Below are positions 24,075-29,402 of a stretch of DNA of 32,112 nucleotides, piece after piece. Each line of letters begins with the position of its first letter. Position 1 is the stretch's first letter. Made by a program: the position numbers and the translations under genes. The DNA is taken from positions 1 to 32,112 of the forward strand of contig CALKCC010000342.1 in the NCBI GenBank assembly GCA_938082855.1, written 5' to 3'. Origin of the DNA: an uncultured Pirellulaceae bacterium. Lineage in GTDB: Bacteria > Planctomycetota > Planctomycetia > Pirellulales > Pirellulaceae. Below the pieces are notes generated by a model, which did not search any database, was not told the DNA's origin, and saw only the letters and a program-made list of their open reading frames with translations.

Positions 24075-24422
24075 TTAAATAGCGTCGGGCCCACGTTCAC
24101 CAGTACGGATACGTACGCAGTCGTCCATTGGAAGCACGAAGATCTTACCGTCACCGATCGCTCCAGTTTCACCCGATCGCCCCGCTGTCAGCACGGCCTG
24201 AATCGTCGGCTCTACAAATTCATCGTTGACTGCAATTTGAAGTTGCGTTTTACGCAGGAGATTGACCGATAACTCGCGGCCACGATACATCTCAGTCTGG
24301 CCTTTCTGTCGCCCAAATCCCTGGCAGTCCATGACTGTCAGACGCGACACTTCGACGTCCGTCAGTGCGGCTTTGACGTCTTCTAGGCGGCTCGGCTGAA
24401 TAATCGCGATAATTAGCTTCAT
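24075..24422 (-). CDS. glnK: P-II family nitrogen regulatory protein (GlnB/GlnK-like)
   Basis: MKLIIAIIQPSRLEDVKAAL, T-loop GFGRQKGQTEMYRGREL, C-terminal signature TGAIGDGKIFVLPMDDCVRIRTGERG. Confidence 0.94.
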   Translation of the reverse strand: MKLIIAIIQPSRLEDVKAALTDVEVSRLTVMDCQGFGRQKGQTEMYRGRELSVNLLRKTQLQIAVNDEFVEPTIQAVLTAGRSGETGAIGDGKIFVLPMDDCVRIRTGERGPDAI

Positions 24423-24483
24423 TGCGTGTGACTCGGCAGTGAGTAAGGCTCGGTTTCCACCCATTGTACAAGGCAGAGGATAA

Positions 24484-24526
24484 GAAAAAAAGGAGACCGG
24501 TTTCGGGTTAGGAAACCGGTCTCCTT
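24484..24526 (-). terminator. Strong intrinsic terminator between amtB and glnK
   Basis: Perfect 15-bp inverted repeat AAGGAGACCGGTTTC / GAAACCGGTCTCCTT, 7-nt loop, then TTTTTT on the minus strand. Confidence 0.92.
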
Positions 24527-24548
24527 GGATTTTGAAGCATAAGAGTGG

Positions 24549-24601
24549 TACCCCGATTCTGGATAAGCAAGGCGGTTACTTATCCAGAACCATATGGGGT
24601 A
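24549..24601 (-). ncRNA. Long hairpin in amtB-glnK intergenic region
   Basis: TACCCC..TTCTGGATAAG - 11-nt loop - CTTATCCAGAA..GGGGTA: 11+6 bp with an asymmetric internal loop. Confidence 0.55.
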
Positions 24602-24627
24602 TCCTCCCGGATCGAGAACAATCCGTA

Positions 24628-24720
24628 ACCTGTTAGAACTCGAGGTGAGCCAATTGTTGTCCCTGCTGGCGGTTAAACACTAACTACTTGTGTTTCGAAT
24701 CACCCCAGGTCCTAACAGGT
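24628..24720 (-). ncRNA. Putative three-way-junction RNA just downstream of amtB
   Basis: Closing stem ACCTGTTAG/CTAACAGGT (9 bp, perfect) extended by GACCTGGGGTGA vs TCACCTCGAGTT (11 of 12 pairable, with G-U); internal hairpins AAACAC-GTGTTT and GCCA-TGGC. Confidence 0.5.
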
Positions 24721-24731
24721 CATGCTTCGGT

Positions 24732-26210
24732 TTAGGACAGTGAATCGCCATAAGCACGCATTCCGTGCTCTGACAAGTCGAGTCCCATTTCTTCTTCTTC
24801 GCGTGACACGCGTAGCATGCCAGCAGCTTTCAATGCATAGAACAGAGCAAACATTGTTACAAATGCCCATGCACAGATGATGACAGTGGAGTACAGCTGA
24901 ACCCAGATGTACTCACCACGAGCAAGGTCACTTCCGGTCCCGAAAAGACCAGTAGCAAGACCACCCCAGATTCCGCAAAGACCGTGAACAGGCCATGCAC
25001 CAACGGGGTCATCAATCTTCAGTTTGTCCAGGAGAACAATACCGACGACGACCAAAACTCCACCAATAGCACCGATGACTAATGCGTTCGTAGTTGATAC
25101 TTGATCACAATTCGCCGTGATAGAGACCAAACCAGCAAGTACACCGTTAAGAGCCATGGTGACATCAGGTTTTCCGAACATAGCCCAGGCAACAATCATG
25201 GCAACAACTGCCCCTGCACCTGCAGCTAATGTAGTAGTTAACGCGATGTAGGTTGTTGCTTCAGAATTTGCAACACCACCGTAAGTCAGTTGACTTCCGG
25301 GGTTAAATCCGTACCATCCAACCCACAATAGGAATACACCAATGGCAGCGTAAGTAATATTGTGACCAGGAAGCGGAGTCGACTTACCGTCTTCACTAAA
25401 GCGTCCAAGCCTTGGCCCAAGAACAATGGCACCGGCTAAGCCAGCAAAACCACCAACAGCATGAACAACTACCGAACCAGCAAAGTCCTGGAATCCAGCA
25501 GCATCAAGAAATCCTCCACCCCATTTCCAAGCACCACTGATTGGGTAAACCAATCCAGTTAGTACAGCACTAAATGTAAGGTAAGCACCAAATTTCATAC
25601 GACCGGCAACTGCACCAGATACGATCGTTGCGGCAGTCGCAGCAAAGGCAACTTGGAACAGAAAATCAACCGAATTGCTGAATCCATAAGCCAGATCCGC
25701 AGAATCTGCTGCGACACCGGGCCCTGCATAGGCAAAATAACCATTGAAATCGCCTGGGTACATAATTCCCCAACCGATGAAATAGTACAGGAGAACACCG
25801 ACCGAAAGGTCCATGACATTCTTAAACAGAATATTAACTGTGTTCTTTTTGGCGTTCAGGCCAACTTCAAGCAAAGCAAACCCAGGCTGCATCAATATCA
25901 CCAACACAGCACAGATCATCATGAACAGAGTGTTGGTTACATAGTCGGCTTCGCCTTTAGTGTAATAAGGCAGATTATCGGCCTCTGTTTCAGATGCGCC
26001 AGCTTCCATTTCTTCCGTGTTTTCAAGTGCAGCTTCTTCTTCAGCTGTCACTTCTACATCTTCTGAAGCTGCTTCTTCCACAACTTCAGCTGCAGGCTCC
26101 TCGTCCTGAAAAGCCTGAGCAGTTGGCACAAACGTACTTGTGCCGATCATCAATGCCAGCATACACATCATTTTGCGTAGCCAACTTTGATCTATACTCA
26201 AAGATAACAT
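24732..26210 (-). CDS. amtB: Ammonium transporter with signal peptide and acidic N-terminal extension
   Basis: MMICAVLVILMQPGFALLEVGLNAKKNTVNILFKNVMDL, VVVHAVGGFAGLAGAIVLGPR, GAWPVHGLCGIWGGLATGLFG. Confidence 0.95.
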   Translation of the reverse strand: MLSLSIDQSWLRKMMCMLALMIGTSTFVPTAQAFQDEEPAAEVVEEAASEDVEVTAEEEAALENTEEMEAGASETEADNLPYYTKGEADYVTNTLFMMICAVLVILMQPGFALLEVGLNAKKNTVNILFKNVMDLSVGVLLYYFIGWGIMYPGDFNGYFAYAGPGVAADSADLAYGFSNSVDFLFQVAFAATAATIVSGAVAGRMKFGAYLTFSAVLTGLVYPISGAWKWGGGFLDAAGFQDFAGSVVVHAVGGFAGLAGAIVLGPRLGRFSEDGKSTPLPGHNITYAAIGVFLLWVGWYGFNPGSQLTYGGVANSEATTYIALTTTLAAGAGAVVAMIVAWAMFGKPDVTMALNGVLAGLVSITANCDQVSTTNALVIGAIGGVLVVVGIVLLDKLKIDDPVGAWPVHGLCGIWGGLATGLFGTGSDLARGEYIWVQLYSTVIICAWAFVTMFALFYALKAAGMLRVSREEEEMGLDLSEHGMRAYGDSLS

Positions 26211-26284
26211 CGTTTATAACTCCCGATTCCAGTGGATCTCGCCAACACAACCTTCATCGCCAGTGTTGGCATTTATTAGTTTTC

Positions 26285-26364
26285 GAGCAGGTGTTCAGGT
26301 ACTTGGCTCCGTCAAGCCGCCTTCCGTGGATACCTGGTTCCCAACCTGCTCAAAAAAAGAGCAG
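26285..26364 (-). promoter_or_regulatory. Structured amtB 5' leader with alternative stems
   Basis: GAGCAGGT (26285-26292) pairs ACCTGCTC (26344-26351); CTGCTC (26346-26351) can instead pair GAGCAG (26359-26364) across A7. Nested CAGGTA/TACCTG. Confidence 0.55.
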
Positions 26365-26386
26365 ATAGTACTCCGCGAGAGTAATA

Positions 26387-26402
26387 TGCAATGGCCGTGC
26401 CA
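26387..26402 (-). promoter_or_regulatory. Sigma-54 (RpoN) -24/-12 promoter of amtB
   Basis: Minus strand reads TGGCACG-GCCA-TTGCA, an exact match to the TGGCACG-N4-TTGCW core, about 180 bp upstream of the amtB ATG. Confidence 0.88.
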
Positions 26403-26609
26403 TTTGACGTTTTAAAACAGGAAACTCGCTGCGACCGACGGGAAACCTTTCAGAAAAACTCTTAATACGCAGTAAACCAGTTGTTTTTAAAACTGCGTTT
26501 TTTTCAGGACTACTCTTCCCGCAAAATCTGCCTGTCTAAGATGCAGGCAACTTGCACACTTTTATTGCATGCAGATTAGAGCCCTAAGTGGATACGAAAG
26601 AGGCTCGTA

Positions 26610-27992
26610 TTAGAATTCGATGATAGCATCGATGCCGAATGCTGTTTCTGAGTAGTTTTCGGCTGGAATCCAGTCTGAACGTACTTCTGGGCGAAGTAGA
26701 AACAGGCCTTTGCCAGGTCGCCAGTTGGCTCCCACGGTAAACGAGTTCTTGGAGACTGAGTTATCTCGCCACCACTCCATCCTCGCTCCCAAGCTTAAAC
26801 AATCGTCCACGTAGTAGATTAAGTAGTTATTCAAGCCGATATCGTCGCCCGCATCGAACAGGCTACTGGTGTTCACATAATCGCTTTGAAGGATGTACGA
26901 CAGATTTTCGGTTAATGCGAGATCAAGCACGATACTGTGAGAGTACCCTTCACCGCGCCAGCCTAAGTCTCCAAAGGTGGTGATGTAGGTCATCGCAATT
27001 TCTTCGGTCAGATTCTTGGAAACTCCGGCAATCCCGTTACTACCATTTTCTGATTGGGCAAATCCAGAATCCCAGCCTAGCGACCACCCCAAATAGACCG
27101 TCGACTCACTCTCCGTAGTGAATTCGGTCAGCACACCCGTATGAGTGAAGGGTTCGCTATTGAACATCGTTTGAGCATGGCTATAGAAGAAATTATCCGG
27201 CGCGGTAACCGTTTCATATCCAACCGGCGTGTAGAAGTGTCCCAATTTGTAATTGAATCGGCCAACCTGTCCGTGCAGATAGAGCTGAGGCATCGCCCAA
27301 CCATTCTTTCCATTTCCCCAGTTGTTTTGGTAGTCCCAGGTTCCAGATGGATTTCCGAAGGCTTGGGTATCAGGACCGTCAACACCGTAAACGACATCGG
27401 CACGATAACCAATGGTTGGCTCGGAATCTCCATCCCCCTGCCCGACCGACGCATCACTTTCAATGGTCATCCATAACTGGTGAAGGTTTACGCCATGAGC
27501 GTGGTTATTAAATAGTCCATTGTTTTGGTCGTGATAGCCGATCGACGTCCAGCCAGAAAAACGTGGTTGCAGACTCCATTGACTCCGCTCACGGTTTTTC
27601 AGGCGATAGAGCAACCCAAATCGATCGCCTAGGATCTCAGCATCTCCAACAGGCTTGGTTGCCTGAGTGTCTTCCTTTGGGGCACCAGGAGAATCCGATG
27701 CCTCGTCCTGATTCTCGTCAGCTGACAACTGGAACGTGACACTCTTAAACCACTCGGGTTGTTCCAGTGCAGCCGCGTCACCCAGTTCTACTTCTTTTGA
27801 TTGCCCGAAACCTCCATTGTCGGTCAGACCGGCAGACTCTTGGGCAGATAATTCCCCACCAGTCCCGAGCAGACTAAGTAGTCCCAGAACAGCCAGAGAC
27901 AGGCAAGCGAGTAAACAAGTATTTCTTTGTCGAAGCATCGTTTCGTTCAATCGGATCGAATTAGTAGGTAGGCGAATCCAAGGTAATTCCAC
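26610..27992 (-). CDS. Outer-membrane beta-barrel porin (OmpL-like/bbp2 type)
   Basis: Signal-peptide-like N terminus (likely start ATG near 27938: MLRQRNTCLLACLSLAVLGLLSLLGTGGELSAQ). Shares NFFYSHAQTMFNSEPFTHTGVL and LGARMEWWRD with the adjacent paralogue; ends in IDAIIEF. Confidence 0.82.
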   Translation of the reverse strand: MELPWIRLPTNSIRLNETMLRQRNTCLLACLSLAVLGLLSLLGTGGELSAQESAGLTDNGGFGQSKEVELGDAAALEQPEWFKSVTFQLSADENQDEASDSPGAPKEDTQATKPVGDAEILGDRFGLLYRLKNRERSQWSLQPRFSGWTSIGYHDQNNGLFNNHAHGVNLHQLWMTIESDASVGQGDGDSEPTIGYRADVVYGVDGPDTQAFGNPSGTWDYQNNWGNGKNGWAMPQLYLHGQVGRFNYKLGHFYTPVGYETVTAPDNFFYSHAQTMFNSEPFTHTGVLTEFTTESESTVYLGWSLGWDSGFAQSENGSNGIAGVSKNLTEEIAMTYITTFGDLGWRGEGYSHSIVLDLALTENLSYILQSDYVNTSSLFDAGDDIGLNNYLIYYVDDCLSLGARMEWWRDNSVSKNSFTVGANWRPGKGLFLLRPEVRSDWIPAENYSETAFGIDAIIEF

Positions 27993-28286: not shown

Positions 28287-29402
28287 TTAGTAGCTTAAGA
28301 TAGCATCGACACCGAATCCAGTTCGAGTATCAGTCGTTGAGTCATCCCAATCGATTCTGATTTCTGGACGCAGAACTAAGTCGAAGCTCGATGGTGGTCG
28401 CCAGTTGACACCGGTAGTGAATGCATATTCACTATCAGCACCAAGGTCGTTACCATCTCTCCACCATTCCAGACGAGCACCAAGAGCGATGTCATCAGAA
28501 AGAGTGTAGAAGACGTACTGGTTTACACCAATTTGATATCGTTCGTTAGTATCAACATAATCACTTTGGAATACGTAAGACATACGTTCACCCAGAGTGA
28601 TATCCATTACGATACTGTGAGAGTAACCATTCTCAGTTTCAGAGATATCGCCAAAAGTAGTTACGTAGTTCAGACCAACATTGTCGCCAAGAGATTTACC
28701 CAGAGCGATAATTCCGTTGGAACCATTGGAATCAAAACCAGTATCCCAACCAGCGGTCCAACCAACAGTCAGATCTAAACCAGTTTCAGTGGTTTTGCTA
28801 GCCAGAACACCAGTGTGAGTAAATGGCTCACTGTTATTCATAGTCTTAGCGTGACTGTAGAAGAAGTTATCAGGAGCGGTAACTACTTCGTAACCAACTA
28901 ATGTGTAGAACTTACCAAGTGTAATGTCCCAGTCACCCAGGTGACCAGTTACGTACAACTGTGGCATCGCCCAATCATCTTCTTCTGTATCCCAGTCGCC
29001 AGCAGCGCCAGCATTTGGATTACCAAAAGCGTTGGTGTTTTCAGCATCACGACCATAAACCAGGTCAAAGTGGTAACCGAGTCCAAATCCTTCAGCGTCA
29101 GCGTCGGAAGCTTTATCAAAAGCAAACCAAACCTGGTGTACGCCTACTTTCTTTGGATCAGTGTTAAACAATCCGGTGGAACGGTCGTGGTAACCGACTT
29201 GTGTCCAACCAGAGATTTCAAGGCCTTCACCGTCACGCTTGAAGAGGCTCCAAGTACCATCATCAGATGGTGAGTCAGCAGCATCCTGCAAGGTGTAAGC
29301 GATCGGCTCGAGTACGGGCTGTTGCAATTCATCAGCAGATACACTGCCGCTCATAATAGCGAATGCAAAAGCGCCCAGTAGAGCAAACTTACTGAGTTTC
29401 AT
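28287..29402 (-). CDS. Outer-membrane beta-barrel porin (OmpL-like/bbp2 type), paralogue of the upstream-adjacent porin
   Basis: Signal peptide MKLSKFALLGAFAFAIMSGSVSA; NFFYSHAKTMNNSEPFTHTGVL; LGARLEWWRD; FGVDAILSY; SD GGAGG upstream. Confidence 0.88.
   Translation of the reverse strand: MKLSKFALLGAFAFAIMSGSVSADELQQPVLEPIAYTLQDAADSPSDDGTWSLFKRDGEGLEISGWTQVGYHDRSTGLFNTDPKKVGVHQVWFAFDKASDADAEGFGLGYHFDLVYGRDAENTNAFGNPNAGAAGDWDTEEDDWAMPQLYVTGHLGDWDITLGKFYTLVGYEVVTAPDNFFYSHAKTMNNSEPFTHTGVLASKTTETGLDLTVGWTAGWDTGFDSNGSNGIIALGKSLGDNVGLNYVTTFGDISETENGYSHSIVMDITLGERMSYVFQSDYVDTNERYQIGVNQYVFYTLSDDIALGARLEWWRDGNDLGADSEYAFTTGVNWRPPSSFDLVLRPEIRIDWDDSTTDTRTGFGVDAILSY

Follow-up and report, generated by a model that had tools for sequence, protein, structure and literature searches.

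Bacterial ammonium uptake is usually taken to be controlled by NtrC and by the contact between GlnK and AmtB, and to our knowledge little is known about RNA-level gene control in planctomycetes. Among described RNAs that resemble the leader reported here, those bound by CsrA or RsmA proteins (E. coli glgC, RsmE-hcnA, RsmZ) carry the same C-ANGGAN-G loop upstream of a ribosome-binding site that contains GGA; ANGGAN is the hairpin-loop consensus for CsrA/RsmE (PMC3791407, PMC7652899), and on glgC a CsrA dimer bridges the hairpin loop and the Shine-Dalgarno sequence (PMC7652899). The glnA and Downstream-peptide RNAs (RF01739, RF01704) are likewise leaders of nitrogen genes, including those for ammonium transporters and PII, and in cyanobacteria the ammonium transporter and PII genes are under glnA riboswitch control (PMC2864571). 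The same source lists the Rhodopirellula-1 motif, a candidate RNA of Planctomycetes that is also reported in Proteobacteria (PMC2864571); the present element, found in one planctomycete genus, differs from it in distribution but may be identical with it.

The locus studied comes from an uncultured Pirellulaceae bacterium, the source of contig CALKCC010000342.1 and hereafter the window's species, the window being the whole stretch of 32,112 nt that was analysed. On its minus strand, to which all window coordinates below refer, amtB (24732..26210) encodes an ammonium transporter of 492 aa (Pfam PF00909, E 1e-125) and has a glnK/P-II gene (24075..24464; PF00543, E 7e-27; likely ATG at 24422) on its 3' side, while two BBP2 family putative porins (26610-27992 and 28287-29402) lie upstream on the same strand. 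The sigma-54 promoter box TGGCACGGCCATTGC (-24/-12; 26388..26402) is the sole exact match to the sigma-54 consensus within the window, where 0.11 are expected, and an RpoN gene is present in the genome of the species; the position of the box predicts the +1 of the amtB transcript near 26376. Further upstream, TGCA-N9-TGCA at 26553..26569 is a putative NtrC-like site, presumably bound by NtrC, and each of the seven species with the RNA element has this motif, with at most one mismatch, at a distance of 155-172 nt on the upstream side of its sigma-54 box. The ribosome-binding region GGAAUCGGGAGUUAUAAACG occupies 26211..26230, with GAAUCGGGAGU kept in 7/7 species. Across family loci (e.g. L016, L049, L216), the most frequent 5-mer within the 20 nt preceding amtB is AGGCG rather than AGGAG; it precedes 27% of amtB ORFs, compared with 3% of the other ORFs of the same loci.

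The leader between promoter and gene is, in our judgement very probably, a genuine conserved cis-regulatory RNA. Its fold was derived from seven amtB leaders of the same genus (158-166 nt) that share a common core, and the 97-nt leader of the window's species is more stable than its shuffles (z -3.4). Unguided, RNAalifold returned for the seven leaders a three-way junction of helices P1, H1 and P2, in which 92.4% of cells are paired and 11 pairs are changed on both sides, with 0/500 shuffles as good, figures that are favourable to the fold because the structure came from the same alignment; sliding the junction partners by 1-3 columns lowers pairing to 29-40%. Genuine double changes occur in each of the three helices. 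P1 joins GAGU (26370..26373, transcript +4 to +7) to 26285-26288; 89% of its cells are paired, its pair types include GC, CG, UA and UG, and the two strands covary as GAGU/ACUC, GAGC/GCUC and CAGU/GCUG. Hairpin H1, AUCUGCUC-U7-GAGCAGGU (26344..26366), has 8 pairs under a U-rich loop, with 93% of cells paired and 3 pairs changed on both sides, and P2, CCAGGUAU/GUACCUGA (26295..26337), which bears the core, likewise has 8 pairs, with 91% of cells paired and 5 pairs changed on both sides. As judged from this comparison, the leader forms a P1/H1/P2 junction that presents a core with two small hairpins.

The core, CCACGGAAGGCGGCUUGACGGAGCCAA (26303..26329), comprises 27 nt that fold by comparison into P3 (CC-ACGGAA-GG) and P4 (GGCUU-GACG-GAGCC), with the consensus CCAYGGAAGGCGGCUYGACGGAGCCAA across the seven species. 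Mean pairwise identity is 93% for the core with 3 flanking nt per side and 57% for the remaining leader. Neither P4 nor the joining bases show variation or covariation, and P3 has only 2 pairs; its hexaloop ACGGAA (26322..26327), of the ANGGAN type that is the CsrA/RsmE consensus, becomes AUGGAA in L006 and L019, the N position being its sole varying base. In 7/7 species 76-78 nt separate the core from the sigma-54 box. The core would lie about 50 nt after the predicted start, with about 80 nt between it and the ribosome-binding site downstream. We rejected the idea that the core encodes a leader peptide (with AUG in L006 and L019 and ACG elsewhere), as the third positions of its codons do not vary and the frame does not end alike between species. 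ANTAR antiterminator RNAs also consist of two small hairpins, and the P3 hexaloop has the A1 and G4 of that class; P4, in contrast, has a GACG tetraloop without A1/G4, so that only P3 fits the pattern of two hexaloops before a terminator, and no terminator overlaps the core. The search for ANTAR proteins gave no match in the bacterium's own genome and none in the control genomes either.

A pattern search found the core once per genome in seven of the nine genomes of the genus, always before amtB, and the element is present in seven of the eight same-genus species with a readable leader, G003 (L008) standing outside this count with its amtB at a contig edge; the eighth, the sister species G007 (L005), has kept amtB behind a different leader in which the element is absent. 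A covariance model run against 241 family genomes recovered the seven leaders, each with an E value of 5e-21 or lower, and had no other hit below 0.01; its unfiltered application to 22 related loci gave only noise outside the genus. Neither the pattern search of the genus nor the 241-genome search placed the element before any nitrogen gene other than amtB, and the search of phage records returned none. Rfam yielded no credible match to the window's leader at gathering score or up to E 10, and its glnA and Downstream-peptide models had no match up to E 3 in the loci of the seven species; an earlier note, made from the window's letters, was right to see here a structured amtB leader and no match to the glnA/Downstream-peptide core, and the leader is conserved and not a known riboswitch. 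Because of these pattern, covariance and Rfam results, the element appears restricted to the genus and tied to amtB. It is a structured amtB leader RNA of one planctomycete genus, not previously listed in Rfam, and the literature searched held no planctomycete amtB leader RNA.

The amtB-glnK spacer contains a second structured RNA (24485..24731; -118.8 kcal/mol, z -11.45), which is conserved in the genus, has no Rfam match and has no further copy in the genome of the window's species. In order, it consists of a three-way element with UAGUUAGUGUUUAACCGCCAGCAGGGACAA, a CGGAUUGUUCUCGAUCCG hairpin, a hairpin with the loop AACCGCCUU (24557-24589) and an intrinsic terminator (24490-24526, by terminator scan) before glnK; UAGUUAGUGUUUAACCGCCAGCAGGGACAA is kept also in another genus (L009). 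A shortened 3' element lacking the 5' half of the spacer RNA is common to L005 (G007) and L008 (G003), and no glnK was seen behind amtB in either. Directly 3' of amtB, a counterpart of the AACCGCCUU hairpin is found in 71 of the 95 usable family loci (e.g. L153, L162, L179, L207), and across these 71 its heptaloop is nearly always UCCGCCU. In 14 such hairpins from across genera, which were picked for being hairpins, no cell is unpaired, and each of the 11 pairs counted has a two-sided change in one species or more. Since most of the hairpins behind amtB run into a T-tract, they look like terminators. We rejected the CCGCC loop as a general terminator feature, genome-wide counts of loosely flanked RTNNCCGCCTNAY being equal to those of a reversed-pattern control, and given that lack of genome-wide enrichment the UCCGCCU loop looks specific to amtB. 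In L191 (2340-2773) and L020 (615-1391) the CCGCC-loop hairpin behind amtB occurs in tandem arrays, with units of about 100 and 171 nt respectively, which look as if copy number mattered.

How the leader might act can be proposed by analogy with the CsrA/RsmA-bound leaders. It would be a cis-acting structured leader of the amtB(-glnK) transcript whose core is recognised by a trans factor, and this factor would adjust the translation of amtB or the stability of its mRNA in addition to control by NtrC and sigma-54; a dimer of the CsrA family, the best candidate, would grip the ANGGAN loop of P3 together with a second GGA, either that of P4 or one near the start codon in the ribosome-binding site, in the manner of E. 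coli glgC. The conserved fold, the invariant core, the promoter context and the distribution are shown here, and the transcription start, the binding partner and the effect on translation or stability are the predicted steps. We hold this explanation as a whole tentatively, at somewhat less than an even chance; that some protein binds the leader may be put at about even, and that CsrA in particular would be the partner is possible and yet rather doubtful. On its side, the P3 loop C-ANGGAN-G (ACGGAA or AUGGAA) is closed by C-G in 7/7 species, and CsrA is encoded in all 20 relatives checked, with 2-5 copies per genome of the genus and 4 in the window's species. The chance of meeting CANGGANG in an equally long stretch is about 0.01, and that of two ANGGA about 0.02; the whole leader, for its part, has 2 ANGGA sites against 1.2 expected, which is not unusual, the second ACGGA lies mostly inside P4, and GGA motifs are common. 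At the ribosome-binding site GGGAG is present in 7/7 species, with UGGAA just upstream in 6/7, a GGA within a Shine-Dalgarno sequence being weak evidence. Unlike the known CsrA/RsmA leaders, this one holds its loop in a three-way junction next to an invariant second hairpin, and binding is a prediction; the invariance of P4 and the joining bases exceeds what a CsrA site needs and counts against CsrA. The literature searched contained no case of amtB controlled by CsrA. Counting against the leader explanation more generally are G007, which has amtB without the element, and the comparison of only seven species.

The earlier note had instead proposed a switch of mutually exclusive stems, built on three copies of one 6-mer arm. 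The letters are as it described them: CUGCUC-U7-GAGCAG at 26364-26346 and a third CUGCUC at 26285-26290, on the minus strand, so that arm 1 is CUGCUC (26364-26359), U7 follows (26358-26352), arm 2 is GAGCAGGU (26351-26344) and arm 3 is ACCUGCUC (26292-26285), whose GCUC is the 3' strand of P1 and whose ACC extends P2. The start predicted near 26376 lies upstream of arm 1, and for this reason arm 1 and both other arms would be transcribed, as the proposal supposed. Its CAGGUA/UACCUG pairing is likewise present (26336-26331 with 26301-26296), and the inner CUUG/CAAG hairpin gives way to GGCUU-GACG-GAGCC plus the 2-bp CC-ACGGAA-GG. The layout of 6-mer, complement and 6-mer, once thought telling, is unremarkable by itself, because 10 of 3204 windows of the same DNA have it within 80 nt. 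In its fullest form the switch would alternate between one state, with the 5' end and arm 1 in a 5-bp hairpin followed by U7 while arm 2 pairs with arm 3, and another, with arm 1 paired to arm 2 and the 5' end to arm 3. Predicted folds of the window's species allow both, mutually exclusive, at -37.9 kcal/mol for the alternative and -30.5 kcal/mol for the H1 state; G001 (L007) likewise favours the alternative (-28.0 vs -23.2 kcal/mol), so that in these two species the preference amounts to 5 to 7 kcal/mol, and a terminator scan scores the hairpin of the 5' end and arm 1 with its U-tract as terminator-like. Against this, the other five species are predicted to favour the H1 state by 5.1-9.9 kcal/mol, and the 5' hairpin shows neither covariation nor an excess over shuffles among the seven, the lack of covariation leading us to reject a 5' terminator as a conserved feature. 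In the comparison of relatives that the earlier note had suggested, H1 is kept by compensatory change and the arm-2/arm-3 helix is not: the latter is paired in 66% of cells over the seven species, a level that 59 of 500 shuffles reach, and its two central pairs are broken in 4/7 and 6/7 species. Arm 3 is fully complementary to arm 2 in the window's species only, reading ACCGACUC in the closest relative, whose AmtB is 92% identical, and ACCGGCUC, ACCCGCUG or ACCAACAAG in the others, so that the loss of complementary arms in close relatives, which the proposal itself had named as fatal to it, is found for arm 3. Mutually exclusive stems thus look possible in the window's species; across the genus, however, the layout of a switch has not been conserved, and predicted folds do not support bistability across species; the arm swap is, on these predictions, an alternative fold of the window's species and not a conserved mechanism, and a switch is improbable, a little more so than the riboswitch weighed below. 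Since the arm-2/arm-3 helix and the 5' hairpin lack conservation and the H1 state is favoured elsewhere, it is the junction rather than the exchange that selection appears to have kept. Three matching arms in one genome are insufficient to infer a switch, because relatives may keep, as here, another fold.

The main alternative to binding of the CsrA type is a metabolite aptamer, the core sensing glutamine or another nitrogen signal and acting on amtB translation or mRNA stability. Such an aptamer might well look like this core, whose loops, stems and joining bases do not vary although the flanking helices covary, and the control of ammonium transporter and PII genes by glnA riboswitches in cyanobacteria (PMC2864571) offers a precedent. 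The glnA/Downstream-peptide RNAs nonetheless have another architecture and no useful covariance-model match here, and an aptamer confined to one gene of one genus, with no other nitrogen gene and no Rfam match even at E 10, would be unusual. Nor is there, beyond the core, a conserved partner that sequesters the ribosome-binding site or a terminator: the partners of that site and its accessibility differ between species in predicted folds, its sequestration by either arm 3 or the 5' end, which we considered and rejected, is seen in some species only, and the terminator scan finds no terminator after the core. The string ACGGAAG is common to the amtB core and the glnA/Downstream-peptide riboswitches. 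Overall we regard a riboswitch as unlikely, and to the same degree a passive leader that needs no regulator, its 5' hairpin and junction serving to stabilise the mRNA or to keep the ribosome-binding site insulated; a hairpin near the 5' end and site accessibility that differs among species would suit the latter, which leaves unexplained why the core is so much better conserved than its surrounding helices. That the conserved stretch could be a DNA operator, the half-palindrome GGCTCGACGGAGCC just 3' of the promoter blocking or tuning transcription, we find hardly credible: it is near-palindromic, strictly conserved and at a fixed spacing from the promoter, yet the framing P1, H1 and P2 covary as RNA helices. 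Only slightly better placed, and still very unlikely, is long-range pairing of AAGGCGG in the core with the CCGCCUU loop behind amtB, which would join the mRNA ends or let a 3' fragment target the mRNA. The 7-nt match is perfect in all six species of the genus that have both parts, and G007 (leader AAAGGCGC, loop AUCGCCUU) keeps 6 nt though the remaining leader has changed; about 10% of Markov-shuffled leaders, however, give a 7-nt match, part of AAGGCGG is itself paired within P3 and P4, and family-wide AGGCG near the start codon is no rarer in loci without the loop (9/24) than in those with it (18/71). Such pairing of the 5' and 3' ends is suggestive within the genus, as far as base complementarity goes, and unsupported family-wide.

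The furthest-reaching prospect, which we consider improbable, is that the core, as a novel aptamer or protein-binding site, reports nitrogen status on the amtB-glnK mRNA and acts together with the conserved CCGCC-loop hairpin behind amtB, so that dedicated RNA control elements would sit at both ends of the same mRNA. Both the amtB leader and the 3' hairpin are compact elements that can be tested directly. A leader RNA in one genus and a terminator hairpin with a loop conserved throughout the family, both on amtB, would add an RNA layer to ammonium uptake.
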